Shown here one piece after another: positions 2,283 to 20,315 of a stretch of DNA of 21,562 bases. Every line of letters starts with the position of its first letter. The stretch's first letter is position 1. The DNA is from a virus: positions 1 through 21,562 of the IMG/VR virus record IMGVR_UViG_3300046462_000075; one strand, 5' to 3'. The notes beneath the pieces are model-generated. The model made no database searches and was not told the DNA's origin. It saw nothing but the letters and a program-made list of their open reading frames with translations. A program made the position numbers and the translations under genes.

Positions 2283-2480
2283 ATGCTTAACCTTATCCGG
2301 TCTTTTAAGAAATTTCTTGCCTTCCCACCGATTCCGGATCCCGGCCCTTTGCGGGATGCCTACGAGGCTGGATACACCGCTGAGTCTTATGCGCGTAATC
2401 CGCATCCAAAGGGGACGCAATACTATGAGGCGTGGAGCAATGGGAAGCTCGACAGGGACAAAGAGGAATATGTCTGGTAG
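2283..2480 (+). CDS. Small Rmf/CrpP-like protein
   Basis: This 65-aa protein has a basic N-terminus (LIRSFKKFLAFPP), then AYEAGYTAESYARNP and YYEAWSNGKLDRDKEEY. The pattern G..A...(x)NP...(about 9)..AW..G resembles the Rmf/CrpP fold, which includes ribosome modulation factor and the plasmid-borne CrpP proteins. The expected GW after AW is GK here, so the match is partial. The ribosome site is weak (GACGAAAAC before ATG). It lies between the attP-like region and the acyltransferase on the same strand and may share a transcript with it. Function is unknown; a ribosome-binding role would be speculative. Confidence 0.5.
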   Translation: MLNLIRSFKKFLAFPPIPDPGPLRDAYEAGYTAESYARNPHPKGTQYYEAWSNGKLDRDKEEYVW

Positions 2481-2497
2481 CGCTGTGCGCGCAGTGT

Positions 2498-2503
2498 AGA
2501 ATC
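2498..2503 (+). promoter_or_regulatory. Possible -10 element for the acyltransferase gene
   Basis: TAGAAT matches the sigma-70 -10 consensus TATAAT at five of six positions and lies 24 bases before the acyltransferase start. The base run 17 upstream is a poor -35 (CTGGTA), so this is weak evidence. A private promoter would allow expression from the otherwise silent prophage, as expected of a conversion gene. Confidence 0.25.
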
Positions 2504-2527
2504 CGCGCCGTCCTACCGAGAAACTAT

Positions 2528-3670
2528 ATGAAGAAACTCGACAATCTCACATCCTTACGATTTCTTGCGGCTACCGCGATAGTCATTGAGCATTGCCGCC
2601 CCGCTTTCCGGTCGATGGATTGGATTCCGGTCTTCACTTACGACTTCGGCGTCAGCTTCTTCTTTGTCCTGTCGGGGTTCATCCTGTGCCAGAGATACCG
2701 TGATTTCGACAGCATCGCGGGCTTACGCGATTTCTATGTAGCGCGCATCGCACGCGTCTGGCCCCTTCATCTGTTCACGCTTTGCGTATTCTTCCTGCTG
2801 GCCGACAAGTGGTACTGGAACGGCACTGAGGGCCATCATGCCGGGATGCTGGCAGCTAACATCTTCATGGTGCACGCGTGGATACCCCGCGCGGAATATT
2901 TCTTCGCCTTCAACGCCGTGTCGTGGAGCATCTCGACGGAAGCGTTTTTCTATCTCGTGTTCCCGGCCCTGAGGCATCGCTGGTCGCAGACATGGCACTG
3001 GAAATCTCTATCGGTCCTGCTGATCGCTTTCCTTGTCCTGACGGTGACGACAGCGCGCGGTGTGGCTCCGTTCGATTTCTATAACCCGGCAGCGAATTCC
3101 TCGCTTGGCTGGGGCTACATATCCCCTCTAGTTCGAATCGTCGAATTCGTGCTCGGGATGCTGGCCGCGACTGCGTTTGAACGCCTGCGTAACCTGTCCG
3201 GTGGCGTATGGAAATGGACCGCGCTTGAGCTATGCGCAATAGCGAGTATCCCTGTCATCACTGCAGTTGACCGGTCACTGCTGCTGTCGGCCACCGGGGG
3301 TAACAGTGCGCAGAGTTCGTGGGCTATGTTCGTAGGTCATGCAGCGGCGGCCCCGGCCTTCGCGCTGGCGGTCTTTATCGCAGCCTTCGGGCGCGGCTGG
3401 ATCTCACGCGCACTTTCTATCCGGCCGCTGACTGTGCTCGGCGAGGCGAGCTTTGCGCTCTATCTATCCCACCAATTGCTCTATAACGTATTCGTCTCAC
3501 ATCGGGCTATGTTCGGGCACCGACCGGATCATGTGGTGGCTCTGTTCTATTGGGGTTCGGCTATCGTTATTTCGCTGCTGCTTTGGGCGCTTGTCGAGAG
3601 GCCTGCTCGCACGTGGATCAGGCACGTGGCATCTCGCCGACCTGAGTTGCCGACGCGCGGGCTGGTTTGA
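2528..3670 (+). CDS. Membrane O-acyltransferase (acyltransferase family 3, OafA/WecH-like)
   Basis: This 380-aa integral membrane protein has about ten hydrophobic segments. The N-terminus LTSLRFLAATAIVIEHC carries the family signature R-x10-H (R11, H22), the likely catalytic pair of acyltransferase_3 enzymes, which transfer acetyl or other acyl groups to sugars at the inner membrane. VSFFFVLSGFIL (TM2) and FYVARIARVWPLHLF are also typical, as is the late SFALYLSHQLLYNVF motif. Such enzymes in temperate phages usually O-acetylate LPS O-antigen and alter receptor specificity or serotype; that role is inferred. The frame is open upstream to 2432, but ATG at 2528 begins at the conserved MKKLDNLTSLR. 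It converges on the late operon, with only nine bases between the two stop codons. Confidence 0.88.
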   Translation: MKKLDNLTSLRFLAATAIVIEHCRPAFRSMDWIPVFTYDFGVSFFFVLSGFILCQRYRDFDSIAGLRDFYVARIARVWPLHLFTLCVFFLLADKWYWNGTEGHHAGMLAANIFMVHAWIPRAEYFFAFNAVSWSISTEAFFYLVFPALRHRWSQTWHWKSLSVLLIAFLVLTVTTARGVAPFDFYNPAANSSLGWGYISPLVRIVEFVLGMLAATAFERLRNLSGGVWKWTALELCAIASIPVITAVDRSLLLSATGGNSAQSSWAMFVGHAAAAPAFALAVFIAAFGRGWISRALSIRPLTVLGEASFALYLSHQLLYNVFVSHRAMFGHRPDHVVALFYWGSAIVISLLLWALVERPARTWIRHVASRRPELPTRGLV

Positions 3671-19037: not shown

Positions 19038-19763
19038 TCATTTGGAGCCGTGTTTCTTCCACCACGCGATCTGGTCAGCCGTCGTCGCGAACTCTTCGGG
19101 CTCGACAGGCGCAGACCGTCCGCCGATCGGATTTATCGGTGCGGGGGCGTTGGAAACGGGTTTGGGTTTTGCCTGACCGACCGTCGATTCGAGACGGGCC
19201 AGTTCAAGCGCCATGCGCAACGGAGGAAGTGACAGCAGGCGTTCAGCGGTTTCCGGGTTCTGGCCGAGGTGATGCAACACCTTGTGGCCGGCATCCATCG
19301 CCGTGACGGCTTCGAGAAACTCGGGCGATGCGCCACCGAGCATCTGGAACGTCCGCAGCGACGAATCCCAATCCGGGAATTCGGTCTTGCCCGCATCGAA
19401 AACCTTGTTGCAGGCGTCGTCGAACTTCTCTTGCTGAATGAGCTTTTTCGCTTCGGCGCGAATCTCGTCAGGCGTCATGCGTCGATCGGTCTGCTGCTCG
19501 CCGGTCGATTGCTGGCCCTGACTTGCTCGCGCCTCTGCGTCGGCTGCCCGTCGCAATGCCTCATGTTTCTCCCGCGTGAGCTGGTCGATGCGGCGTTGAA
19601 CCCAGTCGTTCTTGGGCTTTTCCTGCTGCGTCTGCTCGACTGCTGCGGCGGATTGATCAGTGCCCGATGGCTGATCTACTGCTGCGGGCGGTTGCGCCTG
19701 TTCCGTGGAGGCCGTAGGCGTGACGTTCTCTACTTCGGGTGAAGCGTTCTCTTCGGTTTGCAT
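19038..19763 (-). CDS. Scaffolding protein
   Basis: This 241-aa acidic, Gln/Glu/Ala-rich protein lies immediately before the coat gene, the standard place for the scaffold. The N-terminal 45 residues are disordered (TASTEQAQPPAAVDQPSGTD). A coiled helical region follows (DWVQRRIDQLTREKHEALRRAADAEARASQG), then RMTPDEIRAEAKKLIQQEKFDDACNKVFDAGKTEFPDW, a segment I recall from podoviral scaffolds. The end (EEFATTADQIAWWKKHGSK) is basic and may contact coat. The frame extends to 19814 but that would run into the terminator stem; ATG 19763 begins at MQTEENASP. No strong ribosome site precedes it. Confidence 0.8.
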   Translation of the reverse strand: MQTEENASPEVENVTPTASTEQAQPPAAVDQPSGTDQSAAAVEQTQQEKPKNDWVQRRIDQLTREKHEALRRAADAEARASQGQQSTGEQQTDRRMTPDEIRAEAKKLIQQEKFDDACNKVFDAGKTEFPDWDSSLRTFQMLGGASPEFLEAVTAMDAGHKVLHHLGQNPETAERLLSLPPLRMALELARLESTVGQAKPKPVSNAPAPINPIGGRSAPVEPEEFATTADQIAWWKKHGSK

Positions 19764-19812
19764 GGACGTGTCCAAGGATTGAGCCCGGTGATGCCGCACC
19801 GGTACGGAATGC

Positions 19813-19851
19813 AAAAAGGCCCGCTCTCAGTGAAGAGAAGCGGGCCTTCTG
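19813..19851 (-). terminator. Strong rho-independent terminator upstream of scaffold-coat
   Basis: AAGGCCCGCT (19816-19825) and AGCGGGCCTT (19839-19848) pair perfectly over 10 bp, extended by CTC/GAG with a one-base bulge. The T-tract (TTTTT, 19817-19813) follows only on the - strand. It sits in the late operon 50 bases before the scaffold start, so scaffold-coat expression needs antitermination or partial readthrough. No convincing minus-strand promoter is visible between it and the scaffold gene. Confidence 0.8.
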
Positions 19852-19862
19852 GAAATCTGTGT

Positions 19863-19871
19863 TGCTATACT
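19863..19871 (+). promoter_or_regulatory. Extended -10 promoter (TGCTATACT) for a plus-strand RNA
   Basis: TATACT matches the -10 consensus at five of six positions and is preceded by TG plus one base, an extended -10 that can work without a good -35. No -35 is visible. The expected transcript start (about 19878) coincides with the first stem of the structured RNA at 19879. Activity is inferred. Confidence 0.45.
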
Positions 19872-19878
19872 TGCCGTC

Positions 19879-19993
19879 GAGGTTCAGCGTTTGATGCGGT
19901 GCTAGCCCAATTCAAACGTGCAGGCTGATAAATGGAAATGTCGCCGCCATCGAGGCGGAGCCTGTCGGTTCGATTCCGGCCCTGCCGAACCTC
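19879..19993 (+). ncRNA. tRNA-like structured RNA in the late operon, antisense orientation
   Basis: The region between the scaffold gene and the upstream small head gene has no supported ORF but shows strong pairing. A canonical T-arm is present: stem GTCGG/CCGGC (19964-19968/19976-19980) with loop TTCGATT. A D-arm-like hairpin, GATA/TGTC with loop AATGGAAA (A14, GG and A21 in place), lies at 19927-19942. CCGCC/GGCGG (19944-19958) is in the anticodon-arm position but its loop is two bases short. As a tRNA (about 19918-19988), the acceptor stem pairs at only five of seven positions. An alternative larger fold closes with GAGGTTC/GAACCTC (19879-19885/19987-19993) and has CGTTTGA/TCAAACG (19888-19894/19912-19918). 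It may be a degenerate tRNA, a tRNA mimic or another small RNA. Confidence 0.45.
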
Positions 19994-20006: not shown

Positions 20007-20315
20007 CTAGCGCTGACCGCCGATGATGTACTGCTCACTCGTCGGCACGATCGCGCCGGCCGTCGTGTTCACGAACTGGATCGCCAGCGTGTTCGCCGCG
20101 GAGACGCGCACATTGCCAATCGACAAACCGACCTGATGCGATGCCTTGTTCACATCGATCGAATCGCCTACGGCAAGGCCAGGAACGGTGAACGTCTGCT
20201 CAGCGCTCGTGTTGGCCGCGACGGATGCCGGCGTGAGCGTTTGCGCGATGCGATACAGACCAACGATCGGCGTCGTGCTGCCGAGATCCTGAATAATTCC
20301 TGTGTAACCGGCCAT
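20007..20315 (-). CDS. Small head-region protein of unknown function
   Basis: This 102-aa, beta-rich protein lies between portal and scaffold: GLYRIAQTLTPASVAANTSAEQTFTVPGLAVGDSIDVNKASHQVGLSIGNVRVSAANTLAIQFVNTTAGAI. The pattern (an EQTF.V.GL..GD motif followed by short strands and a final YIIGGQR) suggests a compact beta-sandwich. A decoration or head-fibre role is possible from position, but I do not recognise a named family. AGGGGG six bases before ATG gives a strong ribosome site. The portal stop is nine bases upstream. Confidence 0.75.
   Translation of the reverse strand: MAGYTGIIQDLGSTTPIVGLYRIAQTLTPASVAANTSAEQTFTVPGLAVGDSIDVNKASHQVGLSIGNVRVSAANTLAIQFVNTTAGAIVPTSEQYIIGGQR

Follow-up and report, generated by a model that had tools for sequence, protein, structure and literature searches.

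What is the 115-base stretch that lies between two late genes of a P22-like phage, packed with stems and loops resembling those of a tRNA, and on which strand is it read? The window, i.e. the whole 21,562-nucleotide DNA analysed here, taken from a virus record of IMG/VR, is a 21.6-kb fragment of such a phage, as judged from domain and PHROG matches. Its minus strand encodes a portal protein (PF16510), a coat protein (PF11651), a scaffold, a head-closure protein and an endolysin. An integrase gene on the plus strand suggests that the phage is temperate, and is followed downstream by an O-acetyltransferase gene (2435–3667, plus strand; phrog_3333, PF01757), a plausible candidate for lysogenic conversion. 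The tRNA-like element (19879–19993) sits in the gap separating the gp102 and scaffold genes. On its left, the longest ORF of the head scaffolding protein covers 19038–19814 on the minus strand (phrog_8865, E 9e-24), with a start possibly nearer to 19762. On its right, gp102 (20007–20315, minus strand) is a small conserved protein with no match in Pfam, PHROG or PDB, found between the portal and scaffold genes of many related phages; a relative of it is encoded in 191 candidate stretches of viral contigs. A minus-strand hairpin followed by a T-run (19813–19850) resembles an intrinsic terminator of the late operon and is kept in most relatives, with or without an insert. This hairpin is missing from the output of the terminator scan, so that its function as a terminator is putative.

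A reading made from the sequence only had noticed, in 19879–19993, a T-arm, a D-arm-like hairpin and further stems, and every piece it named was found. Read on the plus strand, the element combines an end helix of 7 bp (P1) with a hairpin (H1) and with a cloverleaf that has all its parts: a 5-bp acceptor, a D-arm, an anticodon-like arm and a T-arm. P1, which was not on that first list, is the outermost helix: GAGGTTC (19879–19885) pairs with GAACCTC (19987–19993), and encloses both H1 and the cloverleaf. H1 (19888–19918) has an outer stem of 7 pairs and an apical segment of 15 nt, GCGGTGCTAGCCCAA (19896–19910). The acceptor-like stem is formed by GCAGG (19920–19924) and CCTGC (19981–19985). 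Between its two strands come the D-arm, GATA-AATGGAAA-TGTC, with 4 bp and a GG in the loop (19927–19942), the anticodon-like arm, CCGCC-ATCGA-GGCGG, with 5 bp and a loop of 5 nt (19944–19958), a variable region of 5 nt, AGCCT (19959–19963), and the T-arm, GTCGG-TTCGATT-CCGGC, with a canonical T-loop, also covered by the Rfam tRNA match (19964–19980).

The sequence-only reading had also remarked that the short anticodon-arm loop and the 5-bp acceptor do not fit a normal tRNA, and this was borne out. The loop has 5 nt instead of the 7 of a normal anticodon loop, and the acceptor is continued by P1, where a tRNA has 7 bp and a free 3′ end. The loop is shortened and offers no usable anticodon; an RNA of this form cannot decode. 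ARAGORN reported no tRNA and no tmRNA in the window, and the Rfam tRNA model (RF00005) gave 18.9 bits for the element, under its cut-off of 29.

Two competing folds had been announced as well, and two were obtained: the minimum free energy structure reaches −46.5 kcal/mol, versus −39.0 for the nested cloverleaf. By nearest-neighbour energies the alternative is thus better by 7.5 kcal/mol, which counts against the cloverleaf; the two structures share P1 and the outer stem of H1. The folding z-score of the plus strand was −2.45, with 1 of 200 shuffled sequences equally stable, a stability above chance expectation. The minus strand is also stable (z −3.46 and −3.35), so that stability alone cannot designate the strand.

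The evidence for the cloverleaf comes mainly from a sister copy, found at the same gp102–scaffold site in phage IMGVR_UViG_3300010224_000029 (our stretches L014, L141 and L158); L082 and L159 carry the window's own version. Between the window and L014/L158, the flanks are 83.5% identical and the element 62%, which means either that the element evolves fast or that it has been exchanged. Compensatory changes in relatives, whose absence the sequence-only reading had named among its refutations, were present: in an alignment fitted to the model, both copies have standard base pairs at all 35 paired positions, and 15 of these differ by two-sided compensatory changes, a figure that represents one comparison, since two distinct copies are known. 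None of 500 shuffles did equally well, and sliding the pairing partner by 1 to 3 columns left 30–44% of cells paired, with at most 2 two-sided changes. Changes on both sides affect 4 of the 7 pairs of P1, 3 of the 7 outer pairs of H1 and 3 of the 4 D-arm pairs; the T-arm stem is compensated too, and the acceptor-like stem becomes GCGAG/CTCGC. The 15-nt tip of H1 is invariant in the two known copies, and so are the letters of the elbow, namely the GG of the D-loop (CATTGGTGT in L014) and the TTCGATT of the T-loop. Elsewhere the letters vary: the variable region is AGATT in L014, the anticodon-like loop has 4 nt, and, applying tRNA numbering, the letters of the 8–14 tertiary contact are not kept, with C8 in the window copy and C14 in L014, a point against the tRNA-mimic reading.

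Paired columns are less conserved (54% identity) than unpaired ones (74%), a pattern characteristic of structures under selection. Fitting the alignment to the structure of the window copy biases it in favour of that structure. This bias is offset by two observations on L014 taken alone. Folded unaided, its minimum free energy and centroid structures are both the nested cloverleaf, and the Rfam tRNA model, which owes nothing to the window, matches it with 38.4 bits (E 3.8e-7), above the cut-off despite the 4-nt anticodon loop. The same fold written with different letters in a distant sister phage means that the shape itself appears to be under selection, and we conclude that the element is very probably a structured RNA kept by its fold. 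A protein-coding reading was rejected, as most frames contain stops and the two copies differ by single-base indels. The same data bear on another explanation, according to which the element is the non-functional relic of a phage tRNA gene, now without the anticodon loop and with only part of the acceptor stem. Rejection by ARAGORN, the low Rfam score of the window copy and the missing anticodon loop are what such a relic would give; the compensatory changes maintain the fold between copies of only 62% identity, and they extend to P1 and H1, which do not belong to a tRNA. We therefore regard decay as very unlikely.

To place the element among its relatives, related loci were gathered with two protein queries, up to 80 for each, and their gp102–scaffold gaps were compared. 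In this set, 44 of the 59 distinct gaps are compact (62–113 nt) and hold little besides the terminator-like hairpin, some not even that. The other 15 exceed this length, and several of them contain small ORFs, on one strand or the other. A −10-like box (TATACT, TATAAT, TACAAT or TACACT) occurs at a similar offset in just 5 of the 59 gaps: those of the two tRNA-like elements, and three with inserts read as plus-strand genes. In the window it is the extended −10, TGCTATACT, that the sequence-only reading had pointed out; it is indeed present at 19863–19871 on the plus strand. The element is thus an optional gene among late genes, missing from most relatives, with a −10 box seen only beside plus-strand inserts and no recognisable −35. 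It is likely to be an RNA “moron”, i.e. an optional cargo inserted into the late operon. It shares with phage morons the extra gene, the −10 box of its own and the variable site between late genes; it differs from them in lacking a clear ORF, its presumed product being an RNA, and in that no terminator of its own was seen.

The gap is a hot spot for other cargo, in the form of small ORFs on either strand (L007, L012, L013, L034, L037, L038, L095, L115, L131 and others). These include a 69-aa family (MNVVQFPRDTTPE.../MELVKFPANTTPE...), a family of 48–56 aa ending in DD...RRK, and a peptide of 58 aa that includes a hydrophobic stretch. The 147-nt gap of L137 has no ORF of at least 40 aa and contains an inverted repeat rich in G+C; it may hold a further RNA, or a regulatory insert.

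Three observations make the plus strand the likely sense strand of the element. Each copy has two G-U pairs, at different places, which would be C-A on the minus strand; the letters of the D- and T-loops are correct only when read on the plus strand; and TATACT stands just upstream of P1 in both the window and L014, at nearly equal distance. Transcription is likely to start from this box, judging from its position, although no complete sigma-70 site was returned for it when consensus promoters were scanned for. A cis-acting structure of the late transcript, such as an attenuator or a processing site between gp102 and the scaffold, would instead be read on the minus strand, which folds stably and on which the terminator-like hairpin comes after the element. 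This reading has to accommodate the C-A mismatches, conserved loops that are D- and T-loops on the other strand only, a −10 box that accompanies the insert on the plus strand, and the compact gaps of most relatives, and we find it improbable. A second possibility keeps the plus strand: since the element is directed into gp102 and the terminator scan found no plus-strand terminator for it, transcription could continue and pair with the gp102 mRNA, the cloverleaf being a stable 5′ structure on an antisense regulator. Neither the D/T elbow nor the invariant tip of H1 is necessary for such a role, and most relatives manage without the element; we consider this unlikely. Among the three options that had been offered from the sequence, a tRNA mimic on the plus strand therefore fits best, while the decayed tRNA is disfavoured by covariation and antisense regulation has no need of the elbow.

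A search was made for further members. A covariance-type model derived from the window gave 89 bits for L014 and up to 36 bits for ordinary tRNAs, so that scores of that order within tRNA clusters are meaningless. Run over 50 related phage records, it returned L014 and one partial match of 18 bits only; a weak match in L051 lies inside the portal region and was judged to be due to chance. BLAST against phages and plasmids found no homologue of the element, and a few additional relatives carried no further copy. Pattern scans of viral contigs, with the H1 tip plus T-loop or with the 15-nt tip alone, gave no third member, the other matches being coding stretches, ordinary tRNAs and the end of a tmRNA-like sequence. 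The scan of genome contigs found L165 and L166 only, and no third member. The H1 tip motif GGTGCTAGCCCA occurs 8–10 bases before an ordinary tRNA-Lys (L157:6360–6483) and an ordinary tRNA-Arg (L166:128–250). Both were rejected as members: the model gives them 26.7 and 29.1 bits, inside the range of ordinary tRNAs, and the motif is probably there by chance.

Compared with known RNAs, the element has the cloverleaf order of a tRNA (RF00005), with the GG of the D-loop, the TTCGATT T-loop and the 5-nt variable region, but its acceptor has 5 bp, it has neither free ends nor CCA, its anticodon loop counts 4–5 nt, and P1 and H1 surround it. tmRNA is a non-decoding RNA whose tRNA-like domain has a T-arm and no true D stem; the element, unlike it, has no mRNA-like part. 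Species 1 RNA of phage T4 (rnaC, AF158101 70908–71046), with YrlA one of the two closest analogues, is an older case of a phage RNA that is stable and has a canonical T-arm together with additional hairpins, but it lies within a tRNA cluster and its predicted fold has no D-arm; it was not among the matches of the window-derived model. YrlA (RF02553), the other analogue, is a bacterial Y RNA of ∼90–150 nt in which both ends form a basal stem and a tRNA-like domain, which has a D-arm and a T-arm but lacks an anticodon loop, is modified by DusA and TruB (PMC8394870; Rfam alignment). Here, P1 and the cloverleaf provide the same combination of basal helix and tRNA-like module. In the Rfam alignment YrlA is circularly permuted, with the basal helix in the place of the anticodon stem and a capped acceptor, whereas the phage element keeps the tRNA order, its basal helix continuing the acceptor side and its anticodon stem being capped, with H1 added.

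Could it nevertheless be a true phage Y RNA of the YrlA family, tethering an Rsr/Ro60 protein? In favour is the shared architecture, in which the two ends pair into a helix that is joined to a tRNA-like module (PMC8394870). The YrlA model, however, found no match in the window and only 12.3 bits in L014, over 17 positions that correspond to the T-arm alone (cut-off 69); the order of modules is T-arm, capped acceptor, D-arm in YrlA, versus D-arm, anticodon-like arm, T-arm here; and no TROVE (Rsr/Ro60) protein was found in the three phage records searched, at least two of which are fragments. This identity is highly improbable. The element is not a member of the YrlA family, judging from this comparison, although a mode of action similar to that of Y RNAs is possible.

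Taken as a whole, the reading of the element as a late-operon moron RNA of a P22-like temperate phage, acting as a non-decoding tRNA mimic, has in our opinion an even chance of being correct. According to this proposal, a small RNA gene would be read opposite to the late operon from its own −10 promoter, giving an RNA of ∼116 nt whose ends, presumably trimmed to P1, would be paired as the 7-bp helix. From the P1 junction would emerge H1, with its invariant 15-nt tip, and the cloverleaf with its capped and shortened anticodon arm. The T-loop might be modified by enzymes of the TruB/TrmA type. The D/T elbow would mimic that of a tRNA and bind a host protein that recognises tRNAs, without the RNA being used or cleaved at an anticodon, H1 supplying specificity; a tRNA-cleaving defence could be blocked in this way, or a tRNA-handling enzyme recruited.

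tRNA-cleaving systems are now counted among the common defences against phages, and some phages counter them with entire tRNAs. An RNA that retains the elbow but has no anticodon would be another kind of response on the part of a phage. That the element functions by elbow mimicry, occupying tRNA-recognising proteins and perhaps tRNA-cleaving defences, is possible, and is the function that we tentatively prefer. For YrlA, it has been suggested that the tRNA-like domain, itself not cleaved, competitively inhibits an anticodon nuclease (PMC7790460); by analogy, an activity of this kind would account for a phage keeping the elbow and dropping the anticodon. More speculatively still, the element could represent a new class of phage non-coding RNA, an un-permuted counterpart of Y RNAs in which an anticodon-less cloverleaf mimic is joined to a specificity hairpin, evolving fast with its fold kept, as a decoy or inhibitor directed at a nuclease that recognises tRNAs or at another defence protein. 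Such an RNA would be a compact probe for proteins that recognise tRNA by shape alone. The element also suggests that moron sites may carry structured RNAs overlooked by gene finders: the window copy was reported neither by ARAGORN nor by Rfam at its cut-offs.

Outside the phage records, the YrlA model gave a full-length match in the genome of Nocardia macrotermitis (L326:1501–1612, minus strand), with 43.2 bits (E 1.4e-7), under the cut-off of 69. This match is possibly a divergent Y RNA.
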